In this document: in pieces, positions 1-50,403 of the stretch
How the letters are laid out: each line of letters begins with the position of its first letter
Position numbering within the stretch: position 1 is the stretch's first letter
Assembly (NCBI RefSeq): GCF_009389715.1
Contig: NW_024067981.1
Coordinates: 124,001 to 188,000, forward strand
DNA from: Phoenix dactylifera
Taxonomy: Eukaryota; Streptophyta; Magnoliopsida; Arecales; Arecaceae
Direction: 5' to 3'
Length of the DNA stretch: 64,000 nucleotides
Made by a program: the position numbers and the translations under genes
Notes under the pieces: model-generated
Databases searched by the model: none
Told to the model about the DNA's origin: nothing
The model's input: the letters and a program-made list of their open reading frames with translations, nothing else

Positions 1-3000
1 TGCCAGCATGAGAATCTCAAGACTGCTAGGGACATACTAGCACACCTGCAAGAGTTGTATGGTGAGCAGAGTCGCACAGCTCGTTTTGAAGTGTCCAAGA
101 GGCTCTTCAAGACAAAGATGCGCGAAGGGCAGTCTGTCCATGATCACGGTCTGACCATGATCAAGGACCTTGAGGAGCTTGAGAAGCTCGGGATGAACAT
201 GCACAAGGAATTACAAGTGGATTTGATCCTACAGTCACTTCCTGATTCATTTGGTCAGTTTATAGTAAACTACCACATGAATAAGATTGAATGCACTAAG
301 ACTGAACTGATCAACATGTTGGTAACTGCTGAGGGAGCCTTGAAAAGTTCAAGGGGCAATGTCCTTGCTGCTGAGTTGACTTCTGGTTCCAAGAGAAAGT
401 CTACTTGGAAGAAAAAGAAGCCTGCTAAGAAGCAGAAGAAAGACAAAAAGCCGAAGAAGGAAGTTCAAAAGAAAAAGGCTAATGACAAAGAAAAATGTTT
501 CCACTTTAATGTCGACGGCCACTGGAAGAGAAACTGTCCTTCATACCTCGAGAGCCTGAAGAACAAGAAAGGTGACACACCTTCAGAAGGTATAGACTTG
601 CTCATAATTGAAACTAATCTAACGGTTTCTTCTACTTCTAGTTGGGTTATAGATTCTGGTTCTAGTGCGCATCTATGCACTACCATGCAGGGTCTAAAGA
701 AAAGTAGAAGGCTGGCGGAAGGTGCGGTAACCCTTTGGGTTGGCAACGGGGCAAAAGTTGCTGCTGTGGCTGTGGGCACCTACCATCTGCGACTACCGTC
801 TGGTTTTAGTTTATTACTTAGAGACTGTTATTATGTACCTGTTGCTAGCAGAAATTTGATTTTTGTTTCATGTCTAGCACAGAAAGGTCATGTTTTTACA
901 TTTGACAAACACTGCTGTTCTATTTATTTAAGAAATAAAATAGTCGCACGTGGTTTTATGATTGACAGTCTCTATCATTTACATATGGATGTATCTGTGA
1001 ATGTTACCGAGCAAGAAGTGAGTGCCAAAGGGTCCAAGAGATCCAGAGATGAGATAAACCAAAGATATTTGTGGCACCTCAGACTTGGCCATATTGGAGA
1101 AGATAGGATGAACAAAATGGATAAAGATGGGCTTCTCGGCTCATTGACTTCCGAGTCATATCCAGTTTGCGAGTCCTGTCTTCAAGGAAAAATGGCTAAA
1201 TTGCCCTTTGTAGGACATGGGGAGAGAACCACTGAAATACTTACCCTAGTACATACAGATGTATGTGGCCCATTCGATGTGCTAGCCAGGGGACGTTATT
1301 CGTACTTCATTACCTTTACCGATGATTATTCACGGTATGGGTATGTGTATCTTATGAGACACAAGTCTGAATCTTTTGAAAAGTTCAAAGAGTTCAAGAA
1401 TGAAGTAGAAAAACAAACTGGAAAACCTCTTAAGGCTCTTCGATCAGATCGAGGAGGAGAATACCTTAGTGGGGAATTTCGGGACTATCTCAAGAAAAAT
1501 GGCATAGTCTCACAGTGGACACCTCCGGGTACACCTCAACTCAACGAGGTGTCAGAAAGGAGGAATCGGACCCTATTGGATATGGTCAGGTCCATGATGA
1601 GCTTCACTGATTTACCTATGTTCCTTTGGGGAGATGCCTTACTCACAGCGATTTATTTATTGAATAGAGTTCCCTCTAAATCCGTTCCTACCACACCGTA
1701 TGAGATATGGCATGGTAAGAAACCAAGTCTTGGTCATCTCAAGATTTGGAGATGTCCGGCCCACGTCAAGAGACTACAGGCGGACAAACTAGAGGCTGGG
1801 ACCATAAGTGCTCGTTTTATAGGATATCCTAAAGAGTCATTAGGATACAATTTTTACGTCTCAGAGGATCACAATGTGTTTGTGAGCCGTCATGCCATAT
1901 TCTTGGAAAATCAGTTTATCCTTGATAGAGGCAGTGGGAGGAAAATTGAGCTTGAAGAGAAAGTCTCTGAAAAGCAACGAGTCATGGATCCTATTGAACC
2001 CATTCATACAGAGCCAGTACACGATGTCCCTCGACTACCTCGTAGATCTAGTAGGGTCTCCCATCCTCCCGATAGATACTTAGGTATACTAGAAGAGGAT
2101 ACCGAGGAAATGTTCCTAGTGGGAGATAGGGATCACATACAGGATCCCAAAACCTACAACGAGGCGATATCTGATATCGATTCCGAGAAATGGCTGGAAG
2201 CCATGAAGTCAGAGTTAGACTCCATGCATTCCAACCAAGTCTGGACCTTAGTAGACCCACCAGAAGGTATTGTACCTATTGGATGCAAATGGATCTACAA
2301 AAGGAAAATAGGTTCGGATGGAGAGGTAGAGACCTATAAGGCAAGACTTGTGGCGAAAGGGTATAGTCAGCGCGAAGGCATTGACTATCAGGAGACCTTT
2401 TCACCTGTAGCCATGCTAAAATCCATCCGAACATTGCTTGCCATTGCAGCATTTCATGATTATGAAATCTGGCAGATGGATGTGAAAACTGCATTCCTGA
2501 ATGGACATCTTGATGAAGATATCTATATGGAACAGCCTTTGGGTTTCACTTCCAGTGATGGAGATCACAAGATCTACAAGCTGCAAAGGTCCATCTATGG
2601 ACTAAAGCAAGCATCTCGGAGTTGGAACACTCGTTTCGATGACGCAATCAAAACGTTTGATTTCATCAAAAACGAAGAGGAACCGTGTGTTTACAAAAAG
2701 GTTAGTGAGAGCGCTGTCGTATTTCTCGTACTGTACGTGGACGACATCCTCCTAATAGAGAATGATATTCCCATGCTAACCTCAGTTAAGGTCTGGTTGT
2801 CAAAAGAATTCTCCATGAAAGACCTTGGGGAAGCATCCTATATTTTGGGAATAAAGGTCTATAGAGATAGATCTAAAAGGATGCTTGGCCTTTCACAGAA
2901 GATGTACATAGAGGAGGTGCTGAAGAGGTTCAGCATGGAAAACTCCAAGAGGGGTCTCTTACCCCTAAGGCATGGAATTCATCTCTCCAAGAAGATGTGC

Positions 3001-3717
3001 CCCAACACATCTGAAGAGATTCAACGCATGAGCAAGATACCCTATGCATCGGCAATAGGGAGCCTCATGTATGCCATGCTATGTACACGACCTGATATAG
3101 CCCTTGCTATGAGTGTCACAAGCAGATATCAGTCGAATCCAGGTGAAGAACACTGGACAGCTGTGAAGAATATTCTTAAGTACTTGAGAAGAACTAAAGA
3201 TTTATTCTTGGTCTTTGGAGGATCATCAGAGTTAAAGGTAGAAGGGTACACAGATTCAGACTTCATGACTGATGTCGATGATAGGAAATCAACATCTGGA
3301 TATGTGTTCTTGTGCAATGGTGGTACGGTGAATTGGAAGAGTTCTAAACAACCGATCATTGCTGATTCTACTATGGAAGCTGAATACATCGCCGCCTCTG
3401 AAGCTGCTAAGGAAGGCTTCTGGTTCAAGAAATTCATTGCAGAGTTAGACGTGATGACATCAGATGTCATAACACTCTACTGCGATAATAATGGCGCCAT
3501 AGCTCTTGCTAAGGAGCCAAGGTCTCATCAGAAGTCCAAGCATATAGAGCGGCGCTTCCACCTCATACGCGACTATGTTGAGAAGAAATATGTAGAAGTG
3601 CAGAGAGTAGACTCCGCGGATAACGTGGCAGACCCGTTCACTAAGCAGCTAAGTCAGCAAAAGACTGAAGCCCACCTTGAGAAGATGGGGCTTAGATATA
3701 TGACTGATTGGCTTTAG
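1..3717 (+). CDS. Copia gag-pol polyprotein, 5'-truncated by the window edge
   Basis: One uninterrupted frame runs from base 1 to the TAG at 3715-3717 (about 1238 codons), so the true start is off-window. Order of domains: gag with a Lys-rich tail and zinc knuckle (about 496-537), aspartic protease (DSGSS, codon at 652), GAG-pre-integrase (WHLRLGH), integrase core ([17 protein letters not shown] and a Glu in SERRNR), reverse transcriptase with YVDD at 2734-2745, and RNase H ([21 protein letters not shown]). This protease-IN-RT-RNaseH order is the copia order. Odd: the second Cys of the zinc knuckle is Phe (CFHF instead of CxxC), which should weaken RNA packaging. Otherwise the frame looks intact, which suggests a fairly young copy. 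Confidence 0.93.
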
Positions 3718-21151: not shown

Positions 21152-24100
21152 TTAAGTTAATAAGGCAAGCTTCTTTTCAAGATGTTTGGCTGAGCGGAGA
21201 GCTTCCAAAGCCTCTGGTTGCTTACCTGCCCGTTTCAAGTTAAGCGCTCGAAGCTTCTCAGCTTTTATCTGTTCTTCCAGATTAGCTTTCTCCGCTTGAG
21301 GATTTCCATCCTTCTCAACTTTTGGCTTAGACTCTGATTTTCTTGAAGGTTGCACTCCGAAATCGGTATCTTGCCACCCAACTGCCTTGAGGGCAGACAT
21401 GAGTTGAGGATCAAGCAGATCCTCCACAACTGCATCATCCATTGCTTCCAATTTGCCAGAAGTGCTGGTGCTTGAACGTTGTGCATCCAACTCTTCTAAT
21501 TGGTTCTCCAATGCCTTGGCTAGTTCAAGTTCAGCCTCTGACTCCTCCATCTTTCCTTCTCGTCGCAGCTTCAAAGCATTGCGCTTGTGAGAGAGGGACT
21601 CCTGCTGTATTTTTAAGCGATCACGGCCTGAAATAGGTTTCTTTGATTGGTTGGTTTTGTTTTCTTGCACGACAGAAGTAGTGTCGGAAGTAGAAGCCAG
21701 AACACTTGGACTACCCATGTTGCTTTGTTGACCATCTTCTAGACTCTTTTCCAAAATTTTTGCTTGCCTCAGTTCTTCTCGGGCTTCTGCCAACTTCCCT
21801 TCTCTCTTTAGGGCAAGAGCCCTTCTCTTACGAGCCAGAATATTATCCTTAAGAGCATCAGTCCCATGATCTAATCTTTCTACAGGTGCTAAGGAATTAT
21901 CTGTGGTAGCAACATTTATCTCTTTCTTCTGAGCCATATGAAGAGTTGAGCCTCCATGTGAGAGTATTTCAGTTTCACCAATGGTCTCTTTGGCACTAAC
22001 CTGAATTCGTGGCTCGATCGGAACACTCGCAGGAGAGGAACTATTGGCTTCTGGAGTTTCTTCCCATGCTGATTCTCCAGAAGCTGGCCGTGAAATCTTT
22101 TCCTCGTTGCCTGAGAGAAAATCAAGCAAGTCTGAAGGCTGGTCTATAGAACTTTCTGCAGCTAGAAGACCTGGTTTTCCAAATTTCTGCAGCTCATGCC
22201 ACGATGTTTCAGGAACTTTCCCACCAGATCCAGGTGGAAGAGGTTTTCTTGCTTCACTCATTTTTTTTAAATTGACATCATATGCATCCCGTGTCAGGAC
22301 CACCTTATCCTTCGGCATATCATTCATAAAAGACAATAAGTCTGCATCAGTATTTTGTACATCACCAGTATTTTTCTGATTATCTGATCTCTTTTGTGTT
22401 TCCAGGGTTCTGAGTACATGTGATTCCACCTGCATAGTGTTGACATTGTGCAAGTTTTCCATATCTGCCATCTCATTTTCCAAGGCCTTGGCCTTCTCCA
22501 GCATTTCCTCAGCCTCCTCAGTTTTCCCTTGGCGTCTTAAGGCCAAAGCCTTTCTTTTTAAGGCTAATAATTCTCTCTGAAGTTCAGCCTTACTCCTCAT
22601 TGCCTTGCGAGGCATTACAGAAGGGACACTATCATGGGCAGATTCATCATTCATCTGTTCAGTGGGTTTATTTGTCATGCTAACAGATTCGACATCATCA
22701 TCGTTCCATCCCAAATTCTTCAAAACTGAAAGCAAGGCTGGATCATGCATGTCTTGTTCTGTTACCTCTGCATCCAACCCTTCCTCTCCAAGACCTACAG
22801 TCACAGAAGCAGCCTCATGTGTATGGGTTGATTCCAAAGTCCTCTTGCCCACTTTAGCTACAGGCCTTTTTGGTGCATTTTCCATCTCTTCCAATTGTTG
22901 CTCAAGAAATTTTCCTTTCTTCAGTTCTTCCTCTGCCTCGTTCAAGCGCCCTTCCCTTCTTAAAGTGAGTGCCTTCTTTTTCAAAGCCAGTAGCTCTTTC
23001 TGAATTGCTAGTTTACTTTTTGGTGGAGATCTAACAAATGAGTTACTTATTTCTGTAATACTTTCTTCAAAAGATGTCCCTGCCACAAATGGATCTACAG
23101 AAACTTGAGTGGTTGAAGTCTCCTGCTTCAGTTCTGGTGTAAAGATTTCAGCATCAGACTGCATACTCTCCAGGTCCTTCTCAAGTAGTTTAGCTTTCTT
23201 AAGCAGTTCCATTGCCTCTGCAGTGTTGCCTGCTCGTTTTTGGCTGAGGGCCTCTCTCTTCAGGGCAAGCACTTGGCTCTGCAATGCTTCTCGGTCCACA
23301 GCAACAGATTGCATGACATGATTGGTTGCTTGATCATCCTCTTCGCTCCAGCCAAATGATTTCAAGGCAGCAGCTAGCTCTGGGTCATTTATATCATCAT
23401 CTGTCACTTCAAAATTTCCATCAATAGAAAGATCATCTATGACACCTAAAAAGTGGTTGAAGTTTCTATCAGGGTCAGGTGCATGGTCCAATACTAAATC
23501 ATCTTGTTTGTCATCATCCATACCGCGGATTAAAGCAGATAGCTCATCGTCAGAATCTTCATCCTCACCCAAGAGCTCCTGTTCTTCTAGTTGTTTTTCT
23601 AAAATTTTGGCCTTCTTCAGTTCTTCCTTTGCCTCAGCAAGCTTCCCTTCTCGCTTAAGCAAAAGAGCCTTTTTCTTGTGAGCAGTGATCTGAGACTTAT
23701 CAATACCACCAGTTTTCCCACCTTGAGAGGATTTTGGAGTGACTTCTCCAAGAAGATTTGACAGTTCACCCTCCAAACTCAGCTTCACGGACTTTTTATC
23801 TGCATCATGAAGATCAGCATCAGACCATCCCAGTTCTCTAAGTTCAGCACCAAGGTCATCCTTTTCCTTTTTACTCCTTTGTGATGGTAACTTTCTTTTA
23901 CTGCCCAACTCTTCACTTTCATCTGTATTTTGGGTGCCAGCCGTGCTGCTCAAATTTGAAGCTTTTGAAGCCATTCTACGGCTCTTTCTTATTGCAATTT
24001 CTAAAGCCCCAGCTTGTCTCTCAAGTTCTTTACCACGCTTGAAGGCTTGAAGTGCTTCCTCAGATTTTCCTTCTGCTTTCAGGATCTTATACTTTTTCTT

Positions 24101-27100
24101 CTCCTCAACAGCTTGCTGACGCAATTCTTCTGGGCTACTGGACACAACATCAGTGTGGGCAGCATTGTGCATTTCAACAGATGTGCTCTTAATAATACCT
24201 ACTTCCCTAAATGGAGTAGCAGACTCATTCAAACTTGAACAGGAAGCGCTGCTCCCAAACTTCTGACGATCAGAAATTGCATCAGCATGCGATTCTTGTC
24301 CAGATGACAAATGCTGCTTCCCATCAGTTCCAAGAATCTGACCTAGAATTTCTTCCTCATGCTTTAAGGCGTGTTTCAGATTACCTGTCCAGAAAGTATA
24401 TGAAGGGAAGTTATGATTTTAGCCTCCATTTGTCGGCAAGCTTCATATTTATCTACCAAATAATCAAGTAAACCACTCCAAGTCAGTAGCTATCTTAAGG
24501 ATGCAACATTTATTGTCACTATCACCAAACAGAAATTCTGTCTTTGTGCCTGCCCAAAGACAGATGCCCCCATCAAAATTCTATAGCAAGAAAATAATCT
24601 CTCCTTCTTAACTCGTGACATATAACAGGAGCGCTGCATCAAAATGCTCGCTACTTTATCAGAAGCAGTCATGTACATATAAAAAATTAAAATGTCTGCC
24701 TATCATTCTTTTGAACTAAAGCCATTTTCCTAGAAAAGAAGTTCCATAACCAGAACAAATTTTTGGAAGTTATTAATGGGAACATTTAATAGTTCATGAA
24801 TGATAAATATGACGGTAGACTGATGCCCTCTTATGTTCCTGCTAAACAAGGTTTACTTGTACAAACAGGAAGAACTAACCCTGCTGTCTAAGAAAATTTA
24901 TGTTCACGATGTCTAAAGATGAAGACACAGCAATCAACTAACAAAAGTAAAACAAAGCATTGACCTTTTGCAGCTCGACTTTTGTGTCCATATCTCAACT
25001 CAAAGCGTGCTGCTTCCTCTATTTGTTTGCAAGGATCACATATTCGAACTGGTGAGTCACCTTGTCCACGTAAAACCATTCTCTGCTGAGTGCAACTATT
25101 GCAGAACAAGCCTCCGCATCTGCGGCAATGATGCTATAACAAGAAAAGCAAACATCAGTATCAACAAAAGCTTTTTTTCTTCAGGAAATTCTATATAGAT
25201 AATATGAAAAAATACACATAGAAGACTGCAATAGCTTTATATGATTATTCTGATTGAGACATGCTCAGACAACTTTTATATCAAATAGAAAAAGGTTTTC
25301 CTTTTTGAATAGCAAATACCAGTACTAGAAGAAAAGAGAAGACTAAAGGGCCATACTTCTTTTCTTCCCTCTAGATTGCAATATGGAGCATTCAACATCA
25401 CTTTCCGAGCAGGCAGGAGTATAAATTTCAAATCAAAAGCCACTGAAATGGACAATTCAATTTGAGAAAATGTATATTTAGCCGCATATAGCAGGCAGGA
25501 GTGAAGGGGGCATAGGGGAGCATTCATTTACAAGATGACAAGAGTCATGCAACAGATATAAGTATGTCCATACTAACATAATAAACTATTTGCTAATACA
25601 TAATTGGAAAGGCTTTGAGGTCAACCAACCTCAAAGCATGAAGCCGCACCTGCAAACCCACATGCCTTTCAATTTAAAAAGAAGAAAAAAAATACAATTT
25701 TCTTTTCTCCCTTCCATGCACCCTGGGCCCACTACCTGTGAAAAGTGTGGTTCTTTAATCTCTTAATATCGTTCCATACAGTCTCTTCTTTGAGTTCTAG
25801 AATTCTACCGAAGTTAAAGTTTTCATGCAGCCACCATCCAGGCCCCACCCAAGAAAAAAACATAAAAAATCCTCCACCTCCACCTCCACCTCCATGTTTC
25901 CTATGTTTCCAGGGTAACCACCACCCCCCCCCCCCAACCCACCCACCCACCCAACCCTTCCTCTCCTGGGCCTCGGTGATTGGAAAAAAAACAAAAGAAA
26001 AAGATGAACATGGATAACATGTGCACGACTCTAATAAGAGATTGAGGCCTCCCCTAGAAGCTTGGGTTTGGGATGTTAAGGCAGCCCCTCAAGTGATTGT
26101 GTTTTCATCGAAGCTAATGTGGACTTGACTTCCATGCTGAATACTGCTTCAGTGCAATGGCTTGGGGAGTTCAGAATGTGGTGATGCGGAGCACATTTAG
26201 AGGATTTTCAACATGGGCTATATGAGTGCCTCCTTTCCAAGGCATACATGGGCTCTGTTAAAACAGCAGTTGAAACATATCACTTGGGCAGATATCTGAT
26301 CTTCCATTATAACAACTCTATGCTTTACTGCTATGGAGCAAGACAAGTTGAAGAGCTCACCGGTCATAGCCTGTACACTATGGAACCTATGGAAGTCAAG
26401 GAATGAAGAGATATTCCAAGGTGTTCAGACTTCAGCATGCCAAGTTCTCAGAATTTCTTTCCATAAAGCTTTTTAGCTCCTTAGAAAGGGCACTGCAAGT
26501 CAGATGTCCTGGTTCCTGGGGTGTCTCTTCCACTCAATTACCACCTCAACCTACTTTAGTGCATTAGATACCCCCTCCACAAAGATTTCTCAAAATCAAT
26601 TTTGATGGCTCTCGCAAAGGACCTGATACAGCTGCTGCTGAATTTGAGGTTCAAGATGAGTGGGTCAGCTTTAGCAGCTGGTTGTCAACCTTTGGCTGGG
26701 ATGACAGTTCCTATTGCAGGCTGTTTGCTGCATTTATAGGTATTTGTCATGCGATAACAATCTTACATGGTAGTAAATTATGGATAGGAGGAGATTACAG
26801 TACAGTTTTTGCATGGCTACAGCGAGATGTGGTGGATGTCTATAATCCTTGTTTATTGCATCTCAAAGAGTCTCTGTGGCATCTTCAGGAGGTTTGGATT
26901 TCCCATGTTTTCAGGGAAGGCAACCAGCCTGCCCACTGGGTTGCCAATTTTGGAACTACATTTCCTGAATTTTTGGTTTGCGATTCTAATCTTCCACCTG
27001 GTCTCATGGCTCTTGTCATGTTTGACTCTCAGGAAGTTGGGTTGTATATAATGTAACAGGGTTTTTTTGGCCCATTGCTTATTAAAAAGAGAGGGGGGCA

Positions 27101-28638
27101 CTCAAAGGCACTAAGTATTGCATGGATACTATCAAGTTTGAGTATATACTTTTACAGGTCATATTAGATAATCTCTTAGGGAATGCTGAGAGGAAAGCAC
27201 AGGTCCACACTTTTCAATCACCACTATGTATTTGTCTACCACGAGCATTGGGATATGATTTTTCTAAGTGAATGCCTAATAGGAAAGCTGCTTATAAATT
27301 TTATTCCGTTATATTTGTTTCTAGACATCATTTTCGTTAGTTATACTATGACACAAAGAGAAAGCTCATAAAATGTTGGTCTAAAGTAAAAAAACAATAC
27401 AAGACTGTATCAAGTTACTGTCTAGTTAAATCAGTATTCACCTAGCTAATGTGCTCATGTTTCTTAAAAAACTGTCAAACAGGGTGAGGAAGGAATAGTC
27501 AATTGCTCATTGTTCCTAAAGCAGGGAACTGTTAACATACGGCCAAGGAATGTTTGCTTATGTCTTTCCAAGATATATCATAGACCAAAGGGGCAAGCAT
27601 GCATTAAGTTACATGTACAGCTGGAAGTCAAGAGTTCAGGGCAATATCGACAGATATAGCTCAGAAGACCAACATGAAATCTTATATTCCGTTGTGAACA
27701 CATTCTCTACACCAAATTATTAGTGGGTCAAACTATCACAACTGAGTGAATCAAAAGTATTGCTAGGAAGTACTGAAGGCAACGCATAAACCTATTAACA
27801 TCATTGAGAACAAAGTGAATCAGAAAGGTGTAGAGCTGTTTCAACCTATCAGCTGCAGACAACTTCTTGTCCTTGTCTCTTACAAAAATTAAAAACTCCC
27901 TAAAATTAGAATCTAGTTAAGTGATCACCAAAATTAAAAACTCCCCAAGGTTACTTGCTACCTTCTCCAAGATACTTCTATTTTCTGAAAATAGAGTATA
28001 TTACATGTGTGACATGAAGCAAACCTGGCACCAGGGAGCTGACTCTCCAGCTAGCAAGTGATAATCCTTTTTGCTTTATTATATTGCCCATTACACTAAT
28101 CATTGTGATTACAACCAGGGTATATCTACCTACAATATTAGCGGAAATCTTACATTTTGTTTCTGTGTTCATCAACAAGGTTAATAAACTTTAATTATAA
28201 ATAGAACGATCAACATCTGGCCGAATTAATCAAGAAGCATTACAAGAGTACATAAAAGAATAAATAGAATCCTGAAGAAACAACTAATTTCTAAAATCCT
28301 TAATACATCATCAACATGAGCATATGCAATTAACAAGAACAAATTACAAGAATAATCACACATATGCAATATATAAAATTATGGCATTGTAAAATATTAG
28401 GTTTCCTCCTAAGGAACTCTATTAACTGGAAATGCTTCACAAATAAAACTAATCAAAACAACACAAATGAAGAAGAGAATAAGAACATGGGTATAAGATA
28501 AATGTTATTAAGAAAGATGCAGACCTTCCTATTGATAAATGTGAACTGAGAAGAACAACCCTGGCAATGGGTTGCATCAATCACCCAACTTCCGCCTCGC
28601 ATCGATGGCTTGGCTGGCAAACCAATCTTTTCCAGCAT
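21152..28638 (-). CDS. FYVE-domain phosphoinositide-binding protein with DM14-like repeats, 1171 aa
   Basis: Exons (-): 28638-28525, 25133-24965 and 24384-21152. Joins are in frame (3516 bp with the TAA). An N-terminal FYVE zinc finger covers about residues 18-75: the WxxD motif (W18, D21), eight zinc Cys (25, 28, 41, 44, 49, 52, 70, 73) and the RKHHCRRCG signature, complete only after splicing exons 1 and 2. FYVE fingers bind PI3P on endosomes. The rest is acidic and low-complexity, with eight repeats of about 40 residues (about 185-224, 328-364, 464-502, 556-595, 696-735, 941-978, 1019-1060, 1131-1169) of the type ALxLKREGKxxEAxExLxxA, then KxLE. They resemble DM14 repeats. Four LxxLGWxDxD-type motifs (GW at 280, 439, 653, 1097) alternate with them. 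From memory it resembles Arabidopsis At1g61690 (FYVE4), linked to ESCRT-III trafficking. The large exon is unbroken. Gene identity is firm, the name less so. Confidence 0.93.
26160..27058 (+). mobile_element. LINE 3'-end fragment (zf-RVT and RNase H-like), in FYVE intron
   Basis: Translated pieces match the C-terminal part of plant non-LTR elements: a zf-RVT-like region (CGDAEH, TLWNLWKSRNEEIF, about 26180-26450), then an RNase H-like domain (KINFDGSRKG, IGGDYSTVFAWLQ, VWISHVFREGNQPAHWV, about 26590-27000). Internal stops lie in the first part. The 26682-27056 frame is open. It is antisense to the host gene and confined to the intron between its two FYVE-coding exons. The upstream reverse transcriptase is absent, as expected of 5'-truncated LINE copies. 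No clear poly(A) tail or target duplication was identified. Confidence 0.72.
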
Positions 28639-49356: not shown

Positions 49357-50403
49357 ATGGAGGATGAAAGAGAAATAAGGGCACCTTCTCCGGACCCTGA
49401 TAGCCAATCAATTTCACAAACTACTCCACACTCCATAGCAACCCAAGCAGATTTAGCAGGAGTGTACCAGTTAATAGCACAACTGCTTGAGCAACTGCAG
49501 CAGATGCAGTTAGCTGCCCAACCTGTATAGCCGATAGAATCCTATTACGAGAGGTTCTGTAGGCTGAATCCACCGATGTTTAATGGTGGGTCCGATCCCA
49601 TGATAGCTGAGGCCTGGATCCGGGAACTGGAGAAGATGTATGAGTTACTTCAATTTCCCGAGGAGGTAAAAGTCAAACTAGCTATCTCCATGCTAAGGGG
49701 GAGTGCTGACTCTTGGTGGACTGCTATGGAGACAGCATATGAGGTCAACGGAACGGCCTGGGGAGATTTTAAGAGAATATTTTATGCTAAGTACTTTTCG
49801 GACTCAGTTAGGCAAATGAAGCAGAATGAGTTTTTATCGCTGACTCAGTCCGAGCATATGACTGTTTCGGATTACGTCAATAGGTTCGATGAGCTGGGTC
49901 GATTCTGCCCCCAGTTTATGGAGGATGATATGAGTAGAGCCAACCGGTTCGAACAAGGGCTTAGACATGAGATCAGGTCCCGGACATCTTCACAGTTAAT
50001 TACCAGCTATATGGATATTTTGGACAGAGCCTTGAGAGTAGAGGCTGAATTGAAAAGATCTGATAGAGAAAGGGCTGACCTGATGAGATCCAGATCAGAT
50101 AGAAGTCAGAGTGGCAGGCCATGGGATTTCAGGGGCACTCCAATTCAAGAGAAGCCCAGGGTCCGCAATTACTCTAGCAGATCCCATAGTGGAATCATCA
50201 ATATCACCATAGCAGATCCCAGAGCCCGCACTTACTCTAGCAGATCCCATAGTGGGCCCTATATGAGGAGAGCGAGGGCATGTTATAGTTGTGGGCGGAC
50301 TGGACACCTGGCACGTGATTGCCCATACAAGAGGAGGAATGAGCTCAGACCTCCTGTACCTGGTGACCAGAGGCCAAGAAGTAATGCTCGAGTTTTACAC
50401 TGA
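49357..50403 (+). pseudogene. Gypsy gag with one nonsense codon
   Basis: ATG at 49357 opens a gag frame broken once by TAG at 49528-49530 (Gln expected from context), then open to 50403. The part after the stop reads as Retrotrans_gag (FCRLNPPMFNGGSDPM, AWIRELEKMYELL, LRGSADSWWTA) and ends with a zinc knuckle CYSCGRTGHLARDC at 50281-50322. A short internal duplication (YSSRSHSG twice) lies before the knuckle. The second part could be made only by an internal start or readthrough. Confidence 0.88.

Follow-up and report, generated by a model that had tools for sequence, protein, structure and literature searches.

A FYVE-finger protein of date palm with eight helical hairpin repeats and four GW motifs, probably of the FYVE4 type

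What are the repeats in the tail of a large FYVE-finger protein of date palm (Phoenix dactylifera), and how might this protein meet SNF7, a subunit of the endosomal sorting complex required for transport III (ESCRT-III)? The question is raised by a gene on the minus strand of a 64,000-nucleotide stretch of contig NW_024067981.1 (hereafter the window, in whose positions all coordinates are given). The initial annotation described a FYVE finger followed by eight repeats resembling the DM14 domain of animal Lgd/CC2D1A proteins and by four GW motifs, and suggested that the protein may be a plant counterpart of Lgd that binds SNF7 multivalently on membranes containing phosphatidylinositol 3-phosphate (PI3P). 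Our analysis indicates that the gene is probably of the FYVE4 type. The FYVE finger would then anchor the protein to PI3P endosomes, and the hairpins and GW motifs would be the candidates for capturing SNF7. In appearance the repeats are closer to TPR-like hairpins that stand free than to DM14 domains.

Gene structure, FYVE finger, repeats and GW motifs

The gene consists of three coding exons (28638-28525, 25133-24965 and 24384-21152, all on the minus strand) with GT-AG introns; the joined exons comprise 3516 nucleotides and encode 1171 amino acids and a stop codon. This model is predicted from reading frames and splice sites. The protein length and the FYVE finger of the initial annotation were both confirmed, and its range of 21152-25133 covers exons 2 and 3; however, it leaves out coding exon 1 (28525-28638), which encodes the first 38 residues. 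Exon 1 begins the FYVE finger and includes WVIDATHCQGC, that is, WVID and the first CxxC, the first zinc-binding pair of the finger; its donor GT follows position 28525, and its frame runs into exon 2. Exon 2 (24965-25133) supplies the remainder of the finger, including RIC and RKHHCR, the latter being completed over the exon junction, and exon 3 (21152-24384) encodes the tail with all repeats and GW motifs and ends with the stop codon at 21152.

In a Pfam scan of the 1171-residue protein, the FYVE finger was detected at the N-terminus (PF01363, residues 21-75, E = 3e-17), and no other domain exceeded its cut-off. A TY-Chap3 match (E = 5e-4, below the cut-off) was set aside because no single stretch passes alone. 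WVID, RKHHCR and RIC constitute the full PI3P signature (WxxD, R(R/K)HHCR and R(V/I)C) as defined in PMC3017826 (excerpt). Judged by these residues, the finger is of the classic PI3P type, in agreement with the PI3P binding that had been claimed for it.

The repeats, R1-R8, are approximately 46 residues long and account for 371 of the 1171 residues; in their 49-column alignment, K, G, E, K, L and E are invariant. They are encoded on the minus strand at 23990-24130 (R1, residues 180-226), 23570-23698 (R2, 324-366), 23153-23290 (R3, 460-505), 22874-23017 (R4, 551-598), 22451-22594 (R5, 692-739), 21725-21859 (R6, 937-981), 21479-21622 (R7, 1016-1063) and 21155-21292 (R8, 1126-1171), the last forming the C-terminus of the protein. 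When each repeat was left out in turn, a profile of the other seven scored it at 15.2 bits (R1) to 59.0 bits (R4), and all eight scores lie above the best scores from 2000 shuffles of the tail (7.7-10.0 bits). The eight helical repeats noticed by the initial annotation are therefore borne out, R1 being the weakest and most divergent (15.2 bits; composition-bias term, 11.0). Structure models cover two of the eight: R5 alone, modelled by AlphaFold2 with the eight repeats as the alignment, forms two helices in an alpha-alpha hairpin (predicted local distance difference test score, pLDDT, 94), and R3 also shows two helices in a second and weaker model of the GW2-R3 pair (pLDDT 68; predicted template modelling score, pTM, 0.44). 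The charge of helix 1 is positive throughout (+1 to +5), whereas helix 2 is acidic in six of the eight repeats (range, +2 to -7). The seven linkers between the repeats are 34-197 residues long and, by a count of composition only, contain 59-76% disorder-type residues.

The GW motifs are located in these linkers at 23810-23857 (GW1, residues 271-286), 23336-23386 (GW2, 428-444), 22694-22744 (GW3, 642-658) and 21362-21412 (GW4, 1086-1102), again on the minus strand. All four copies reported earlier are present, but the formula given for them, DPxLxxxLKxxGWxDxD, is exact only in GW3 and GW4: E replaces the first D after GW in GW2, while GW1 lacks DP and has R in place of K. The pattern L...L[KR]..GW.[DE].D, chosen after the motif had been seen, occurs four times in the protein versus none in each of 20,000 shuffles. 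A typed consensus weakly matched RuvA_C (E = 0.018, below the cut-off). A degenerate GW-like stretch, DDELSALIRGMDDD, is also present just after R2 (23510-23551, minus strand, residues 373-386).

The motifs suggest a reading in which they, rather than the hairpins, bind a partner (SNF7, or the MIT domains of SKD1/LIP5), the hairpins serving as spacers or dimerisation units. MIM1 motifs have a D..L...L..L-like spacing, an Arg and a final Lys or Arg. The GW motifs resemble them in the spacing, and all four copies, which lie in the inter-repeat linkers, share two L, the G, the W and two D; however, the Arg and the final Lys/Arg are not kept, searches with the motif yielded nothing below E = 0.18 in the PDB and nothing over a cut-off in Pfam, and confidence in the GW2-R3 model is too low for any packing to be read from it. 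We consider this reading somewhat unlikely.

FYVE4 and the capture of SNF7

FREE1/FYVE1 of Arabidopsis is presumably AT1G20110, a class IV gene. In the published classification, AT1G20110 carries its FYVE domain at the C-terminus, class II consists of AT3G43230 and AT1G29800, and the class III gene AT1G61690 has FYVE as its sole domain, located N-terminally and with the full signature (PMC3017826, excerpt). The names FYVE2 and FYVE3 belong to the class II pair, At3g43230 and At1g29800 (PMC10050702, excerpt). Because FYVE1 to FYVE3 are assigned in this way, FYVE4 should by elimination be AT1G61690, which the date palm protein resembles in being a plant protein with an N-terminal classic FYVE finger as its sole recognised domain and with the full PI3P signature. 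We infer that the gene is the date palm orthologue of FYVE4.

FYVE4 is a plant-specific FYVE protein associated with ESCRT. A 2025 review reports that in Arabidopsis it binds SNF7 and plays an important part in recruiting SNF7 to endosomes; the review calls its role as an independent route of ESCRT-III recruitment unclear (PMC12051064). In addition, the double mutant fyve4 lip5 is reported to die at the seedling stage (PMC9887185, excerpt), and a role of FYVE4 in SOS1-SOS2 salt signalling has been described (PMC13043654, excerpt). Because the protein fits FYVE4 and SNF7 binding is reported for the latter, the SNF7-related function proposed by the initial annotation is probably right and is already in print for Arabidopsis FYVE4. 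The classic FYVE finger likewise agrees with a site of action on PI3P membranes, whereas the route to SNF7 through DM14 domains and Lgd found no support, as described in the next section.

If the gene is of the FYVE4 type, the FYVE finger would keep the protein on PI3P-rich endosomes, and the long tail, with few order-type residues between the repeats, would display eight free-standing TPR-like hairpins and four GW motifs. These parts would capture and concentrate SNF7, and the concentrated SNF7 could then give rise to ESCRT-III filaments and intraluminal vesicles. The hairpins, the GW motifs or both are therefore the candidate SNF7-binding parts, presumably acting in a multivalent manner. Two points weigh against this reading. 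The assignment to FYVE4 was made from architecture and elimination rather than from an alignment. Furthermore, the net charge of the FYVE stretch is +3 to +5 by a residue count without zinc, as compared with +11 given for a model of the AT1G61690 FYVE domain (PMC3017826, excerpt), the two values having been counted differently.

The eight hairpins and four GW motifs provide concrete pieces for dissecting how FYVE4 recruits SNF7. They also suggest that a FYVE-anchored SNF7 binder is possible in a plant whose genome contains no recognisable DM14 domain.

DM14 identity and Lgd-type docking

The protein resembles Lgd and CC2D1A/B in combining a membrane-binding domain with several helical hairpins and in having CHMP4/SNF7 as a probable partner, but it pairs FYVE with eight repeats, whereas the animal proteins pair C2 with four. 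The predicted hairpin and the SNF7 binding of its likely orthologue are what would be expected if the repeats were true DM14 domains that bind SNF7 through a basic surface of the Lgd/CC2D1 type. The profile searches argue otherwise. The Pfam model of DM14 (PF21528), with which a DM14 control sequence scored 2.4e-21, matched none of the eight repeats at E <= 10 (the HMMER filters discard most matches above about 0.1) and did not match the repeat consensus. Across the whole 773-Mb genome it again gave no match at E <= 10, with one candidate scored and no DM14-bearing control genome alongside. When profiles were compared with only two DM14 sequences, column-shuffled versions of the repeat profile did as well as the real one in 10 of 150 cases and, in a second comparison, in 7 of 200 (4 of 150 for a GCN4 coiled-coil control), so that the real score is barely above that of shuffled repeats; with the same two sequences, Smith-Waterman comparisons yielded z values of 1.0 and 2.2, about the level of GCN4 (2.1). 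No literature joining DM14, FYVE and plants was found, and the matches listed for DM14 and Arabidopsis look unrelated by title.

The residues by which DM14 domains dock are also missing. The odd-numbered DM14s of Lgd require the motif KARRxxR for binding to Shrub, in which K387 touches E90, and a C-terminal proline after the DM14 helices is essential (PMC11275157, excerpt). The motif positions were mapped onto the repeats by anchoring on the hairpin Ala after the invariant Glu. Ala is kept at the A388 position in seven of the eight repeats and a basic residue at the R393 position in six; however, the K387 position is Glu in every repeat, the R389 position is basic in two and the R390 position in none, so that no repeat has all four basic positions together. 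By eye, no LPxPPGF-like stretch follows helix 2 in any of the eight. In fold searches with a 52-residue hairpin, no match with E <= 0.001 and only middling Z scores were obtained; solved DM14 chains were not among the matches listed, which is weak evidence because a lone hairpin resembles many folds.

On the partner side, 18 Snf7-family matches were found in the date palm genome, three of which (L022, L025 and L026) we take to be SNF7 loci because they resemble CHMP4B. In Shrub, E86 plays a part as well as E90; both were numbered here by counting from R59 and R70. The alignment of SNF7 with Shrub is gap-free (by MAFFT for L025, with the same exons in L022 and L026) and places Ile at the E90 position and His at the E86 position in all three loci. 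The K387-E90 contact is thus kept on neither side, since the repeats have Glu and SNF7 has Ile at the respective positions. As a separate observation, the replacement of the acidic E86 and E90 by His and Ile raises the possibility that plant SNF7 filaments use an electrostatic contact unlike that of animal CHMP4.

With profile, motif and partner residue all against them, DM14 identity and Lgd-type docking were rejected, and the repeats are most improbably true DM14 domains. The outcome that the initial annotation had named as refuting its proposal has therefore occurred: a significant DM14 profile match and the CHMP4-binding surface are both absent, although a helical hairpin is predicted (R5).

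Other hairpin folds, relatives and neighbouring sequences

Single TPR-like hairpins are known from S20, Tom20 and MIT (eLife 16761). The best profile matches of the repeats are to TPR and TPR-like units, with which they share a Gly at the turn. In TPR numbering, Ala occurs at position 8 in seven of the eight repeats, at position 20 in seven and at position 27 in six, and Leu at position 24 in seven. However, the Pro at position 32 is missing from all eight, the repeats form no tandem array, and even the best of them, R5, does not reach the cut-off for PF00515 (23.4 versus 27.8 bits). Smith-Waterman comparisons gave z values of 10.8 for ribosomal S20 and 7.6 for a TPR unit.

The VSL hairpin of Vta1/LIP5 (PF18097) is close in shape, 2rkl matching the modelled hairpin with a root mean square deviation of 0.6 A over 42 residues. 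It was nevertheless rejected as lacking sequence support: PF18097 matched none of the eight repeats at E <= 10 (control, 1.5e-19), its profile score was equalled by 44 of 200 shuffles, and the Smith-Waterman z value was 1.9.

The alpha1-alpha2 hairpin of ESCRT-III (Snf7-type, PF03357) shows a weak sequence match at helix 2 in addition to its hairpin shape, which could be taken to mean that the repeats mimic this hairpin, binding SNF7 in the way that a subunit of its polymer would. The match is, however, confined to R3 and R8 and below the cut-off (14.5 versus 27.3 bits), and the date palm protein lacks a full ESCRT-III core. The unrelated S20 and TPR unit outscore it, other unrelated hairpins equal or exceed it in fold-search Z, and a search of the PDB with the repeat profile found no Snf7 chain at E <= 10. 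Because unrelated hairpins do as well or better, the match may be generic, and mimicry of this kind is unlikely. An extension of it, that eight decoy ESCRT-III hairpins and the GW motifs seed or dose the SNF7 polymer on PI3P membranes, appears quite unlikely; if true, the decoy hairpins would represent convergence in plants on the solution of animal Lgd, to which they would be unrelated.

A search of the 773-Mb genome with exon 3 gave a single match at E <= 0.01, the gene itself, with no second copy. The FYVE finger is found at 23 places in the genome, this gene included, and no repeats were seen at the 11 further places that were read among the remaining 22 (L001-L008 with flanks of about 1.5 kb on either side, and L009, L010 and L029 over wider regions). 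One of them, L006, is similar to the protein past the finger (residues 18-150, 27% identity), the similarity ending short of the repeats. No relatives were found in the bacterial genome collection.

Elsewhere in the window, two open frames of retrotransposons are present on the plus strand. The frame at 49576-50403 encodes a retrotransposon gag (Ty3 capsid-like, below the cut-off) with a CCHC zinc knuckle, and the single long frame at 55-3717 represents a Ty1/copia element with gag-like, integrase and reverse transcriptase (RVT_2, E = 1.7e-71) parts.

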